Part shown: positions 2,382 to 7,452 of the stretch, piece after piece
Numbering within the stretch: position 1 is the stretch's first letter
Layout of the letters: every line of letters begins with the position of its first letter
Origin: a virus
Strand: one strand, 5' to 3'
DNA length: 23,980 nt
IMG/VR virus record: IMGVR_UViG_3300027771_000099
Location: 1 to 23,980 of that record
Translations under genes and position numbers: made by a program
The notes under the pieces: generated by a model
Told to the model about the DNA's origin: nothing
The model's input: the letters and a program-made list of their open reading frames with translations, nothing else
The model's database searches: none

Positions 2382-2573
2382 TCAGGGGTCGATGTATCCA
2401 TAGCGATTTGTGCCTGAGCCAAAATCTGCCTGCATAAATAAAGTGCTAATATCCTGCCTAGAGCTGATTGATGCTTTTAGCTCGGCAATTGCCAAATTAG
2501 CTTCTACTGGTGATTCGTAACTACCCGCAACAACATCTTCTCCACTTTCTGTAACATAGCCTATTTCAATCAC
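2382..2573 (-). CDS. Small hypothetical protein after the tail hub (63 aa)
   Basis: The start is GTG at 2573, which overlaps the TGA of the tail hub gene (GTGA). A GGAG element lies eight bases upstream inside the hub gene, so translation is probably coupled. The 63 residues are acidic at the N-terminus (IEIGYVTESGEDVV) with one amphipathic helix around ANLAIAELKASISSRQD. I do not recognise a family. Its position directly after the hub and before the baseplate-like protein suggests a minor tail-tip component. No cysteine pairs, signal or membrane segment are seen. Confidence 0.6.
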   Translation of the reverse strand: MIEIGYVTESGEDVVAGSYESPVEANLAIAELKASISSRQDISTLFMQADFGSGTNRYGYIDP

Positions 2574-5380
2574 GATACTAACTCCATTGTGCCTTGGAAT
2601 CTGGAGATTTTAGTTAGAACACCTGTATAAGATGCTGCCATTTTTGCTGTAGCCCTAAATTCTGTTGCTGTTGTTGTTGCCCCAAAAGTATCAGCCACAA
2701 CGTGTCTCATTTGCTGAGTATCCCCACCTGGGAGTGATACTTGTATTACGTCAGATCCGTTATTTGATACCCAAGTTCCTACTGCTGCAAACCTAAAAGG
2801 ACTGAAATAAAGCGTTTCACCTGTAGTGAATGTTTGAGATATGTTAGAAACTAGCAAAAAAGTTCTATTATTGACCGAATCGTAATAGACCCCGTTGATT
2901 GCGCCCTGTCCAGTTCCTGAGCTGTTGTCAGCCACCCCGCCAGAGTTATCAAGTTCTGCTAAATGATTTCCAGAGACGTAGATTAGTTGCTGGTATTGAT
3001 GCGGGAAATTGACAAATACAACCCCATTAGTTGCGCCAACTTGAGAACCAACCGCACTTTTACTTCTTACCTGAAGATTGAAAAAAGCAGTAACATTCCT
3101 GCTAGATGACGTTTGATTTTGAAAATAAAAATCAAAAGTTAAATCCACTCTTGCTCTCTTGCTAATTCCAAGTTCTGGGGCTGGCAAAGAAAATTCTGTA
3201 GTCTCTTGGTTCGTAGTTGTAAGGGTCAAATTGTCATACATAGATACTGGGAATAATTCGGACACATCACCTGTTAGCTTATTAACCTGAATAGAGTTAG
3301 CTGTGATCTGGTCGCCGGTTATCGAGCCATCAACAATTAAATCACCGCTGATAAAGTTTGTGTTTTCACTCCAGCTTGAAGAGGTAGTGCTGTAAGTCCA
3401 GGGATGCACTTTATCCGTTGCTGTAGTTGTGTCCGTTGCTAAAAATACGTCACCATTCTTAGGGCTTCGACCTGCTGCGGTAGTAAACTGCGCGGCAGTC
3501 GGCGCTGATGACGAATCAGTAACCGCTTGATAAAGGCTAGGAAGCTTTGGCGTAGTGTCTGCCATTGTCGCTACGTTACCCGTAATGGCTGTTGATCTAA
3601 CGCCAAGACCGTTATAAGCATAAACGGAAACAACATAGTTACTGGCAGGCTCAACTGGGCCGATAGTAAAGGCTGTTGTTTTTGTGCTTGAATTAACTGC
3701 TGTGCCGCTAGTTGTAGAGTTGTACCACTGAACCAAGTAGTAGTCAGTAAACGAATCATTCGCAGCAGTCCAGCTCGCATTGATAGTCGGTGTTACAGTT
3801 CCATCAGCGTTGACAGTTGATGATGCAGACAAGGCCAGGGGCGCTACGGCAGGGGCTGCGGTATTTCCGTCATACAGGGCAAGCTCACCACCAGCCAAAT
3901 AATCCTCTTCGTCTGATGAAGCCCAATCATAGATAGCTGCTGCGGTTTCAATCGCCTGCACATTAACAACAATCTCGCCTGATGACGAAAGGGATAAGTC
4001 GTAGCCTATAACCTGAAAGACTTTCTGGCTCCAACCCATTTTGGCATTGGTAATCATTACAGTATCACCAGCCCTGAACTTTAACGCCGTCAGGTTACAT
4101 GGCACTGTAATAGTGGTTTGCTGGCGGGATTGCAATAACGCGAGCTTTGCTATTCTCTGCGCTCTAATGTTGTTAGTCGTAAACGGTAGCGGCATATCTA
4201 AATAGATTGGGTCGCCGTCTGCTGTGCTAAATGTAGAGCTTAACTGGGCTGGGTAATCGGCTACGTTATAGTCGTCTTCTTCACTTCTAAATACGCCTTT
4301 AACGCCGTTGTATAGCCCTCTCCTGGACTGCTTGGTCTGTACCTCAATACCGCCAACCATTACAGATTCATCAATGGTCACAGAGGGGGCAACGTATGCG
4401 CCGCCTGATATAAAATACTCACCGCTAGAATAGACTAGCTTGCCAGCCATACCAGAAAGCATAGCCTCAATGTTTTCTTTCTTAGAATTAGCACTATCAA
4501 TCACGCCGTCTAAAGTATATCTAGCCTGATTGCCGCCAGCCTCTAAAGGTACGTCCTGATTGCATAACGATATAGCCGTTGCCAGAGCCGTTGAATTGAT
4601 GTCTGAGGCTGATTCGGCAAGGCCGTACTTTGTGTCACGCAGGTAGTCGTAAATGCACAGGGCTGGGTTTTGAGAAAATTGCCATGTTGAAGGCGTTGCA
4701 AGCCGCTGGGTAGAAACTCCCAGAGTGCTATCATAAACAGAAGAGGTGCTATCTTTGCGGGGGTCGTAGACTTTCTTGCCGCGAATCGTTGCAGATATGT
4801 TAGGCAGACCGTTAGCGAAAAACTCTGCGTCATACTTTAGGCGAATGTATATGTAAGCCGTATCTAAAAGCTTGTGGTCAGTAGTCCATTGAGTTGATCG
4901 AGATACAAGCTCTGAATCGGCTGTTGTTTGATCTCCAAGATGAACATTGACATCAAGGTATGGTTGCCAAGATACTTTTCGGAGCGTTGTTTCATCCCAA
5001 ATCTTTTCTTGGTTAGCGTAAATCTCTTCAATGGCATCTACTTCATGGCCAGCAAAAGCAATGACCATGTGGATATATTCGTTGTCCTCTTCACCGTCTG
5101 TTGTGTCGATATAAACAATGGAGCCGCCCACTTTAATGCGCCCGTAGATCATCTTTCTAGTAGCGTCAGGCTCTCTAACCGAAAACTCTAGCCCTGCTAG
5201 TTGCTGCCCCAAACTAGGCTTAGGAATTAAAGCCCTAGAAATCATTGACAATCCAGCGCCGATAGCGAATGCCGTTAATCCTGCCGTACTAAACAATGTT
5301 GCAAAAAATCCCGCCGCGCCAATTTGTGCTGCCGCCGCCGCTGTCGCTGACGCTATACCTGCTACCGCTACAACTGCCAT
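2570..5380 (-). CDS. Tail hub/host specificity protein, gpJ-like, with fibronectin type III domain (936 aa)
   Basis: This is the largest gene in the window, starting at ATG 5380 behind AAGGAAA. Residues 1-50 are unusually hydrophobic and Ala/Gly-rich, as in gpJ-type hubs that fold around the tape measure end. Residues 60-500 match the tail-hub type (SVREPDATRKMIYGRIKVGG, followed by a TipJ-like region). Residues 509-604 form a fibronectin type III domain (INASWTAANDSFTDYYLVQW). A GDLIVDGSITGDQITANSI element near 677-702 is the usual neck of gpJ C-termini, and the remaining 230 residues are likely receptor-facing. In lambda-like phages this protein closes the tail tip and selects the host receptor. 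Its place after tape measure and tip genes fits. Confidence 0.85.
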   Translation of the reverse strand: MAVVAVAGIASATAAAAAQIGAAGFFATLFSTAGLTAFAIGAGLSMISRALIPKPSLGQQLAGLEFSVREPDATRKMIYGRIKVGGSIVYIDTTDGEEDNEYIHMVIAFAGHEVDAIEEIYANQEKIWDETTLRKVSWQPYLDVNVHLGDQTTADSELVSRSTQWTTDHKLLDTAYIYIRLKYDAEFFANGLPNISATIRGKKVYDPRKDSTSSVYDSTLGVSTQRLATPSTWQFSQNPALCIYDYLRDTKYGLAESASDINSTALATAISLCNQDVPLEAGGNQARYTLDGVIDSANSKKENIEAMLSGMAGKLVYSSGEYFISGGAYVAPSVTIDESVMVGGIEVQTKQSRRGLYNGVKGVFRSEEDDYNVADYPAQLSSTFSTADGDPIYLDMPLPFTTNNIRAQRIAKLALLQSRQQTTITVPCNLTALKFRAGDTVMITNAKMGWSQKVFQVIGYDLSLSSSGEIVVNVQAIETAAAIYDWASSDEEDYLAGGELALYDGNTAAPAVAPLALSASSTVNADGTVTPTINASWTAANDSFTDYYLVQWYNSTTSGTAVNSSTKTTAFTIGPVEPASNYVVSVYAYNGLGVRSTAITGNVATMADTTPKLPSLYQAVTDSSSAPTAAQFTTAAGRSPKNGDVFLATDTTTATDKVHPWTYSTTSSSWSENTNFISGDLIVDGSITGDQITANSIQVNKLTGDVSELFPVSMYDNLTLTTTNQETTEFSLPAPELGISKRARVDLTFDFYFQNQTSSSRNVTAFFNLQVRSKSAVGSQVGATNGVVFVNFPHQYQQLIYVSGNHLAELDNSGGVADNSSGTGQGAINGVYYDSVNNRTFLLVSNISQTFTTGETLYFSPFRFAAVGTWVSNNGSDVIQVSLPGGDTQQMRHVVADTFGATTTATEFRATAKMAASYTGVLTKISRFQGTMELVS

Positions 5381-5381
5381 T

Positions 5382-5834
5382 TTATTTCCTTAATAGTTTT
5401 GAGTAGATGCGCTCTATCAATTCAAAGCCCATGCCCAATAAAAGATCATCAAAAGGTATATGCACTTTAGTATTAATCGTCATCATAGAAACGTCAGACT
5501 CTTTGCAGTAGTCTTCGGCGCATTTTATAAGATTATAACCGGCATAGGTTTTACGGTATTCAGGCAAAACAAAAACAACGTCATTAGACGCAAACTTATG
5601 GTCTTTGTAATGTATGCTTTGGCTTACCAAAAGAACGCAATACCCTACCAGCTTGCCTGCATCTCTAGCAGTAAACGCAACTAGGTTTCCAGCAGCATCT
5701 AGCCTAGCGTATTCTTTCCAATCTGGGTTTAGTTTGATCTGTCCTTGATGCAACGCCACTTCTTCCCAGTGCTTTTCTAGCAGTGGCTTTATGTCTTCTT
5801 TGACGCTTGCTAAACACTCTCTTTGATAGATCAT
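5382..5834 (-). CDS. GNAT-family N-acetyltransferase inside the tail module (150 aa)
   Basis: The ATG at 5834 overlaps the TGA of the Hint-bearing tail gene (ATGA). The fold pattern is that of GNAT enzymes: a beta strand YCVLLVS, a strand NDVVFV followed by LPEYRKTYAGYNLIKCAEDY, which is the acetyl-CoA binding helix region (motif A), and a late MGFELIERIYSKLL strand-helix. At 150 residues the length is normal for a single domain. GNATs move an acetyl group from acetyl-CoA to an amine. In similar operons this slot, just before the hub, usually holds an NlpC/P60 peptidase; here it is an acetyltransferase. The substrate is unknown; virion protein or host protein amines are both possible. Confidence 0.8.
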   Translation of the reverse strand: MIYQRECLASVKEDIKPLLEKHWEEVALHQGQIKLNPDWKEYARLDAAGNLVAFTARDAGKLVGYCVLLVSQSIHYKDHKFASNDVVFVLPEYRKTYAGYNLIKCAEDYCKESDVSMMTINTKVHIPFDDLLLGMGFELIERIYSKLLRK

Positions 5835-6895
5835 TTGTTATGCACCACAAAGTTATCAACAATAAAAGTATCATCACCATCAACGTCAAGATTAAATACA
5901 GGGATTAAGGTTTTTCGTTTGCGTAAAGTTTCTACTTCTTCTATATAAAATTTTCTGAAATTGTCATATTTGCGAAGAGCATCACCAAAGCTCAACTTCC
6001 CAGCAATTATTAAATCAGGGTGAATTTCCCTAGTCTTCTCCGGGTTTAAAGACTTCCAGCCTTGAGTGGTTAATATTGGGTGAGAATCAGTCATCTCTAA
6101 TGAGCCATTAACCGTATACAGCACCCTGTCTTCCATTGGGTGGTGATAGAGCTTCACGACTTCGTTAGCTTCTCCGCGCTGGCTTATAACTAAATCACCA
6201 ACCTCAACAGATTCAATATTCTTTTCAGTAAAATCTGCCATCAAAACTTTAGATCCTGCTACAAAGCATCCATTTCCAAAAGAAACGCCAAAACCGCCAC
6301 CGCCACGGGAACCATAGTTTGCGGTAGAATTAGGGGTTGGTCTACCCCAGATTATTTCTTGCTGTGCGATCTTAGAAACAAACTCAAACCCTTTGTCTGC
6401 TGGATAGTCAATCTTCTGATCTTCTGCCGTAAACCGGCGAACAGATGAGCGATCAAATGCAATCAGTTTATTCTCAGCAGCGATAGTAATTGTTGAAGTC
6501 TCGCCTGAATCTACAATACTCATCACATCCATAAACCCGCTAAACAAAATAACAGGGCTAGAAATGATGTCTGCGTTTTCGTCAAAGGCTCCCAGATACA
6601 AGGTTATCTTCCTGCCTTGGTATGGCTCGTCTCTTGCAATGCTTACTAATGACTGCTTGATTCCTGATACGGTAAAAGTAACACCATTAGCGGTAAGTTC
6701 TTCTGATTCTCTTACAGGGCTGATAGCCATTAGGTCGCCAGTTCCAACGTAAGTATCACCGCCGTAAACCAAATTGCCTAAGCCAGACCATAAGTCTAAA
6801 TCACCAGAATCAAACTCCATCTTAACCAGATAGATTGGACGGACTAACTCAGCAGACGCAACCGCCTGCATCTCTGTGCTTAATGTTCTGCTCAT
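5831..6895 (-). CDS. Tail-tip protein (DUF2163-like position) with C-terminal Hint autoprocessing domain (354 aa)
   Basis: The ATG at 6895 overlaps the previous stop (TAATG) behind GAGG. Residues 1-185 look like a tail-tip protein (LVRPIYLVKMEF, ILFSGFMDVMSIVDSG), at the position DUF2163-type proteins take after the tape measure and a first minor tail protein. A Gly-rich linker (195-209) leads to a Hint domain: CFVAGSKVLMADFTEKNIE from Cys210, TDSHPI with Thr269 and His272, and VFNLDVDGDD through the end VVHNK, with His352-Asn353. All residues needed for N-to-S acyl shift and Asn cyclisation are present. The residue after Asn is Lys followed by stop, so there is no C-extein and no Cys/Ser/Thr for normal splicing. 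Cleavage at Gly209-Cys210 is the expected chemistry; its use is inferred. Confidence 0.8.
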   Translation of the reverse strand: MSRTLSTEMQAVASAELVRPIYLVKMEFDSGDLDLWSGLGNLVYGGDTYVGTGDLMAISPVRESEELTANGVTFTVSGIKQSLVSIARDEPYQGRKITLYLGAFDENADIISSPVILFSGFMDVMSIVDSGETSTITIAAENKLIAFDRSSVRRFTAEDQKIDYPADKGFEFVSKIAQQEIIWGRPTPNSTANYGSRGGGGFGVSFGNGCFVAGSKVLMADFTEKNIESVEVGDLVISQRGEANEVVKLYHHPMEDRVLYTVNGSLEMTDSHPILTTQGWKSLNPEKTREIHPDLIIAGKLSFGDALRKYDNFRKFYIEEVETLRKRKTLIPVFNLDVDGDDTFIVDNFVVHNK

Positions 6896-7452
6896 TATAA
6901 AGCCTCGACAAACGCAAAGGTAAACCCATAGATTGAAGCCGTATCAACTGACCAGCCAATATCATTGGATGATAATCGCCAGAGGCTCTTTGGGAAGGTG
7001 AAATCTAAAGCAGTGCTAGTAGTCACAGCAGCCCTCAATGGCGGCTGGAATGATAACACGTTAGCGCCTGACGCTTTATCGGCTGTAGCCATATAAAGGT
7101 AATCGCCTAGCTGGAAGTAGTCGCCTGCGGCAATTGCACCTGACCCTGCTGTAGTCGTAAAAGACTCTGCGCGAATAGCGGCGCTGGCAACAGATGCAGT
7201 AGTAGTGCTAGTGTGCAAAGGACTGCCGAAAGTAAACGTGCCTGACCGACCTTTTAAGCCAACAATAAAAGCCTGTACCGCTTTGGCTTCTGCATAATTC
7301 AGCGGGGGTAATGTGACTTCACACTCCCACCTTGCGCCCTGATGCTCATACGCTTGCTGATCAAAGCTAAACGGTGATTCAGATACAGCAACACTACGCT
7401 TTAGGCGCATATTGAGGTTTGTGATTCCTACACTTGGAAAAGATAAAGGCAC
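6895..7452 (-). CDS. Minor tail protein, tail tip (185 aa)
   Basis: Translation starts at GTG 7452 with AGGAG eight bases upstream. The N-terminus, MPLSFPSVGITNLNMRLKR, and the segment LPPLNYAEAKAVQAFIVGLK with RSGTFTFGSP are typical of small proteins that follow tape measure genes in siphoviruses, at the place of the DUF2460-type protein in gene transfer agent-like clusters. The C-terminus (LWRLSSNDIGWSVDTASIYG) is also of the conserved tail type. It probably forms part of the ring or adaptor at the distal tail end. The exact family is not certain. The order tape measure, this protein, Hint protein, hub supports the role. Confidence 0.7.
   Translation of the reverse strand: MPLSFPSVGITNLNMRLKRSVAVSESPFSFDQQAYEHQGARWECEVTLPPLNYAEAKAVQAFIVGLKGRSGTFTFGSPLHTSTTTASVASAAIRAESFTTTAGSGAIAAGDYFQLGDYLYMATADKASGANVLSFQPPLRAAVTTSTALDFTFPKSLWRLSSNDIGWSVDTASIYGFTFAFVEAL

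Follow-up and report, generated by a model that had tools for sequence, protein, structure and literature searches.

Hint domains in phages and the chemistry of BIL domains are already known, and where intein-like domains of phages are discussed it is usually as selfish insertions into enzymes of replication or packaging. Uncultured phage proteins have also been annotated as 'Hint domain containing' before. A search of the open-access literature gave no account of a Hint family carried by structural proteins of phage tails, nor of an invariant basic residue directly after the terminal His-Asn (HN) of Hint domains, the +1 position.

BIL2 from Tetrahymena thermophila (BUBL1 locus; PDB 6y75 and 6tmm) acts between two Ubl domains of a eukaryotic polyubiquitin-like gene. 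Its own chemistry is isopeptide formation and not canonical splicing; it was reported to link the ubiquitin-like domain that precedes it to a lysine epsilon-amine (PMC8616854). A-type BIL domains are defined as having no nucleophilic +1 residue (PMC5874633, PMC7664689), and self-cleavage at both the N- and the C-terminal side is a further mark of the type. Intein-like domains without Cys, Ser or Thr at +1 can splice in some cases, according to the account of Dassa 2004 given in PMC5874633 and that of Aranko 2013 given in PMC7664689.

Here we explore a Hint domain encoded in a virus, IMG/VR record IMGVR_UViG_3300027771_000099, of which a stretch of 23,980 nucleotides (the window) was analysed. 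It forms the C-terminal part of a 354-residue gpL-like protein in a tail module of lambda-like order: tape measure, distal tail protein, the gpL-like protein, GNAT and J-like fibre. A preliminary description, made from the sequence alone, had listed a complete catalytic set (Cys210, Thr269-x-x-His272 and His352-Asn353) with a Gly-rich stretch before Cys210, and translation of 5831-6895 on the minus strand returns all of these; the interval 5834-6268 that it assigned to the domain corresponds exactly to residues 210-354. The features of the locus are as follows.

5831..6895, minus strand: gpL-like minor tail protein with C-terminal Hint domain, 354 aa plus stop (ORF; PHROG 2048)
6269..6895, minus strand: predicted mature part, residues 1-209, gpL-like domain and Gly-rich tail (from the lengths of 68 complete Hint-less relatives)
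6269..6340, minus strand: Gly-rich variable linker, residues 186-209, ending ...FGNG before Cys210
5837..6268, minus strand: Hint domain, residues 210-353 (Pfam, AlphaFold, BIL2 fold match)
6266..6268, minus strand: Cys210, predicted nucleophile of an N-to-S acyl shift (invariant in 60/60 family Hints)
6080..6091, minus strand: block B TxxH, Thr269 to His272 (Thr and His invariant in 60/60)
5837..5842, minus strand: block G His352-Asn353 (invariant in 60/60)
5834..5836, minus strand: Lys354, the +1 residue and last residue of the protein (Lys or Arg at +1 in 61 Hints)
5382..5834, minus strand: GNAT acetyltransferase, next gene (Pfam Acetyltransf_1, 2e-7)
6895..7452, minus strand: distal tail protein (phrog_1302, 2e-30)
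2570..5380, minus strand: J-like central tail fibre (phrog_5616, 1e-91; phrog_31, 1e-60)

The Hint domain and its described relatives

The earlier assignment to a tail-tip protein is borne out by a match of PHROG 2048, 'tail protein', to residues 1-201 (1e-54) and by the surroundings of the gene, with the distal tail protein (phrog_1302) on one side and the J-like fibre (phrog_31) on the other. Among PDB sequences no convincing relative of the gpL-like domain was found. The gpL-like gene stops at a TGA that overlaps the GNAT start codon ATG (AAATGA). We rejected this GNAT as a dedicated partner of the Hint, since a GNAT also occurs between L and J in Hint-less phages. Phage DSL-LC06 has one between its L-like and J-like genes too, and in pelagiphage HTVC112P the gene at the same position is annotated as an RTX toxin acyltransferase.

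The Hint region matches Pfam Hom_end_hint (2e-9) and Vint (6e-7). Since both exceed the curated cut-offs the match is not due to chance, and both profiles are matched by 26 of the 26 family members sampled. Hint fold, Cys1 and block B TxxH, the features of the Hint superfamily, are all present. An AlphaFold model of the 152-residue Hint, with an alignment of 26 diverse Hints as input, has a confident Hint fold (mean pLDDT 93.5); the model of the full-length protein (mean pLDDT 55.3) is too poor to position the Hint against the tail domain. The closest solved fold is BIL2 (6y75, Z 20.9, 137 residues, 2.1 A; 6tmm, Z 20.0), followed by the gp41-1 intein (Z 18.2), the C. thermocellum BIL 2lwy (Z 17.8) and Hedgehog Hog (Z 17.0). 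A profile search of PDB sequences placed 2lwy first (1.7e-12) and BIL2 second (5e-10). Likeness of the modelled fold to BIL2 is not proof of the same reaction.

Each of 60 distinct family Hints, whose pairwise identities go down to 28%, retains Cys1, the block B Thr and His and the terminal His-Asn without exception. Loss of Cys210 or His272 in homologues, which according to the preliminary description would refute its reading, was thus not encountered. The complete catalytic set is conserved in nine of the nine gpL-type relatives that read through the Hint to the stop; in gpL-type L005, whose contig ends after residue 291, Cys210 and TxxH are kept. A dN/dS of 0.05-0.12 in close pairs corresponds to purifying selection on the Hint. 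Block F (residues about 333-346, positions 5855-5899) has Asn for the Asp of inteins, as in 2lwy, and Asp for the His. Most HNK-terminal relatives share this block F. Nine of 11 terminal-type Hints have Asp at the His position, and most of the remaining copies have Asn, Lys or some other residue there. In inteins the block F His helps Asn cyclisation (PMC7765530), and since it is mostly lost here the C-terminal step may be weak, slow or differently assisted.

BIL2 resembles the phage Hint best in fold, is similar in size and also has Gly before Cys1; it differs in its eukaryotic gene context between Ubl domains, and identity is only 24%. With the A-type BIL of C. thermocellum (2lwy) the phage Hints share the C-terminal His-Asn (60 of 60), a +1 residue that is not Cys, Ser or Thr (it is Lys or Arg) and the block F 'YN' motif. 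A-type BILs are located in variable regions of non-conserved proteins; the phage Hints lie in variable linkers, though of conserved tail families. They differ from A-type BILs in being carried by phage virion proteins, in the nearly invariant basic +1 and in the loss of most block F His residues. The C-terminal motif of B-type BILs lacks the HN that is present here. The class 1 inteins found in phage genes for replication and packaging have the fold, Cys1, TxxH and HN in common with the phage Hints, but carry Cys, Ser or Thr at +1 and occupy conserved sites of essential enzymes, with a C-extein, whereas the phage Hints have Lys or Arg at +1 and lie in a variable linker or at a protein end; in the studied protein the Hint is C-terminal after a variable Gly-rich linker, with Lys354 at +1 and no C-extein beyond it. 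The PT-HINT domain (PF07591) is similar in its Hint fold and HN end, and 15 of 26 family members match it weakly. The hosts here are tail parts and not toxins, the two groups fall on separate sides of the tree, and the PT-HINT layout of a Hint between delivery protein and C-terminal toxin is absent, only Lys following the Hint. Hedgehog Hog is likewise a C-terminal Hint without C-extein, and as in Hog the phage domain would use the N-terminal thioester step only; unlike Hog it is followed by a single residue instead of a sterol-recognition region, it retains HN, and its host is a phage protein.

Optional presence on gpL-like proteins

Among 80 close viral relatives of the whole 354-aa protein the Hint is present in 10, including the truncated L005. 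The 68 complete Hint-less relatives measure 204-228 aa with a median of 209.5, compared with 209 for the predicted cleavage product, and Hint-plus gpL proteins have 201-209 residues before Cys1. Since Hint-less relatives end near 209 aa, a cut between Gly209 and Cys210 would restore the protein in its common form; the N-terminal product of about 209 residues predicted in the preliminary description agrees very well with these lengths. The residue before Cys1 is Gly in every gpL-type Hint. In one matched pair (a slash marks the Hint border) Hint-plus L006 reads ...RPRGG/C while Hint-less L023 has the same end, ...RPIGGGQ followed by the stop.

Proteins with and without the Hint are intermixed in the gpL tree, where well-supported branches force at least three changes. 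Hint-less L011 and the studied locus are 97% identical in the distal tail protein, 91% in the gpL domain and 98% in GNAT, and their DNA differs only from the WGRPxP codons to the GNAT start codon. The existence of such near-identical modules without Hint implies that the tail module does not need it. The preliminary description had spoken of a notable maturation step; such a step is not required by the tail module, the Hint being facultative. That the domain is optional, and that Lys354 is not a stray last residue, are the two points it missed.

The basic +1 residue and other layouts of the family

A search of viral contigs with the Hint family returned C-terminal Hints ending in HNK and stop on gpL-like, DUF4815/VrlC-like, J-like and other proteins. 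For the survey of the +1 residue only the N-terminal 75 Hint residues served as query, against C-terminal bias, and the best 80 of at least 427 relatives, all on metagenomic contigs, were kept. These best 80 comprise 61 distinct complete Hints, with Lys at +1 in 56 and Arg in 5; 11 are terminal, 6 are followed by a short tail, 19 by a long C-terminal flank and 25 by a second Hint. Sixty of them, with a median pairwise identity of 42% (minimum 28%), form 17 clusters at 60% identity, of which 16 have Lys and one has Arg. The single known exception is L111, with Thr. In the control set the +1 residue is A, C, D, T, D, A and S in seven PT-HINTs borne on plasmids, C, T and S in three phage inteins, and A in a Ruminococcus phage Hint. 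The Lys-type family is split from these controls in the tree (support 99/96, midpoint root). The near-invariant basic +1 is a property of one clade and has probably been selected.

The preliminary description had stated that only Lys follows the Hint, without a C-extein. This is correct in that Lys354 is the last residue, but Lys is the signature of the family rather than a simple absence of C-extein. It had likewise stressed the lack of Cys, Ser or Thr, which are indeed absent from +1 in the 61 Hints, yet a basic residue occupies the position throughout. An origin of Lys354 as by-product of the ATGA overlap with the next gene was rejected, as other members have AAA or AAG followed by TAA or TAG without overlap, or continue after the Lys. 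The notion of Lys as an obligatory nucleophile is weakened by the five Hints with Arg, which argue against a strict need for the lysine amine; a positive charge at +1 that aids the C-terminal step appears more likely.

The same Hint subclade occurs on unrelated proteins, namely gpL, DUF4815/VrlC and J-like. In the VrlC/DUF4815 type the Hint lies inside a Pro-rich linker ahead of a conserved DPLAQSF segment; L187, L196, L225, L227 and L229 have such an internal Hint with Arg at +1. At least 80% of the length of the joined flanks is matched in 1,172 isolate phage records, and the six of these that were read have no Hint at that place. As the linker is continuous in more than 1,100 isolate phage records, removal of the Hint is likely there too. 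Cultured cyanophages have the same VrlC/DUF4815-type protein without Hint.

J-like proteins, found by means of the J domain and not the Hint, all have an N-terminal Hint. Where the start is readable there is almost no N-extein (MCC/C or MGKLS/C), and HN/K is followed by a Gly-rich stretch. With HN/KGG... after an N-terminal Hint, the J-like genes of L150-L158 and L109 are the mirror image of the layout of the 354-aa protein. In L095-L107 and L186-L228 a complete Hint ending in HNK is directly followed by a second Hint-like domain (GCF[LI].GT...MADG) without HN end; these tandem-Hint carriers are marine phage proteins, mostly of 550-800 aa. Judged by its sequences, the family occupies variable linkers, C-termini or N-termini of tail proteins, which is like BIL domains and unlike inteins.

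Four Hint queries found no cultured phage with this Hint family among 50,697 records at the sensitivity used. Relatives in cellular genomes are limited to one archaeal MAG match and one unannotated Aeromonas caviae record. The latter (L161:3839-4570) is a 244-codon ORF encoding a Hint with HN/KGG and then a Gly/Ser-rich tail, a rare cellular copy of the Lys type. In Achromobacter phages 2-1 and JWF (L159, L160) a tail-fibre-like protein has a Hint in its C-terminal part, preceded by a Cys/Asn repeat (NCNCDCNCSCF). These two Hints have no recognisable HN end; the phages are cultured and are possible models for Hints of structural proteins.

Possible fates of the domain

We consider it fairly probable that the domain is an optional, self-removing Hint resembling A-type BILs, in which a thioester at Gly209-Cys210 followed by hydrolysis or aminolysis would yield a 209-residue tail protein. 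The analysis shows directly that the domain is intact, under purifying selection and optional, that its predicted product has the standard length and that the basic +1 is near-invariant; every chemical step we infer from sequence and model. As the conserved residues suggest, Cys210, aided by Thr269 and His272, would turn the Gly209-Cys210 peptide bond into a thioester. This would then be opened, most likely by water or a small amine, with release of residues 1-209, the equivalent of the whole protein in Hint-less phages. Asn353 might subsequently cyclise and free Lys354, and the basic +1 would most likely assist this C-terminal step or position the junction. In a variant the free amine of Lys354 would attack the thioester, giving 1-209 plus Lys as product. 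Self-removal as the sole role would not account for the HN end and the basic +1 being invariant in terminal Hints too, which needs another explanation. Alternatively, the Hint could stay attached and be tolerated in the virion.

The conclusion of the preliminary description that splicing is not expected was too strong, given the cases without +1 Cys, Ser or Thr attributed to Dassa 2004 and Aranko 2013. In BIL-like splicing the +1 alpha-amine would attack the thioester after Asn cyclisation, by which internal copies would have their flanks joined and the 354-aa protein would become 1-209 plus Lys. The splicing of A-type BILs that lack a +1 nucleophile, as PMC5874633 cites it from Dassa 2004, the presence of the family inside proteins with continuous Hint-less homologues, and the invariance of HN in all layouts agree with such a reaction. 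We nevertheless hold it to be unlikely, as the block F His is gone in most of the family and splicing would be pointless for the N-terminal J-type Hints with nearly no N-extein.

A covalent ligation, which we regard as rather unlikely, would pass the Gly209 thioester to a lysine amine of a tail-hub partner or to Lys354, and produce an isopeptide-linked tail protein as in BIL2. It draws on the fact that BIL2, the nearest solved fold, was reported to transfer a ...RGG C-terminus to a lysine epsilon-amine (PMC8616854; RGG motif, PMC9200820), on the gpL-type junctions GNG/C, RGG/C and LGG/C and on a +1 that is almost always Lys. However, five Hints carry Arg at +1, from which a nucleophilic role of this kind would not be expected. 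The near-identical modules without Hint would make the link dispensable, and we saw no partner gene whose presence follows that of the Hint, GNAT occurring also where it is missing. That the basic-+1 family as a whole would be a built-in, ATP-free ligase of tail assembly, joining the Gly thioester of a tail protein to a neighbouring amine or its own +1 lysine, is an equally doubtful proposal.

The domain might also be a cassette, selfish or hitchhiking, that recombination carries from one tail gene to another; the phage would gain nothing from it and would tolerate it because of its self-removal or its position at a harmless protein end. Patchy presence between close relatives, one subclade on unrelated gpL, DUF4815/VrlC and J-like proteins, and sites in variable linkers or at protein ends fit this idea, which is compatible with self-removal and not exclusive of it. 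We judge it improbable nonetheless, because every catalytic residue is kept by selection and the 144-residue domain shows neither a homing endonuclease nor any other function for mobility. A catalytically dead domain with a structural C-terminal role only, to which the Asn and Asp in place of the block F Asp and His of class 1 inteins might point, is very improbable, since it leaves the full conservation of Cys1, Thr, His and HN in 60 divergent copies unexplained.

The present Hints form a coherent clade whose carriers are structural proteins of the virion, among them the gpL hub, the J fibre and VrlC/DUF4815. The clade keeps the full set of catalytic residues and has a near-invariant basic +1, which is absent from the BIL-type and intein controls sampled. 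Sequences and fold model together suggest that the family is probably a module for its own removal from virion parts or for their attachment, and near-identical tails with and without Hint make the question directly testable. Were the ligase reading true, virion parts would be covalently joined in a manner not described for phages. Whether by self-removal from tail parts or by their ligation, environmental phages would, if this is true, possess a maturation step that is new, and the family would also be a new source of enzymes for protein cleavage or ligation.
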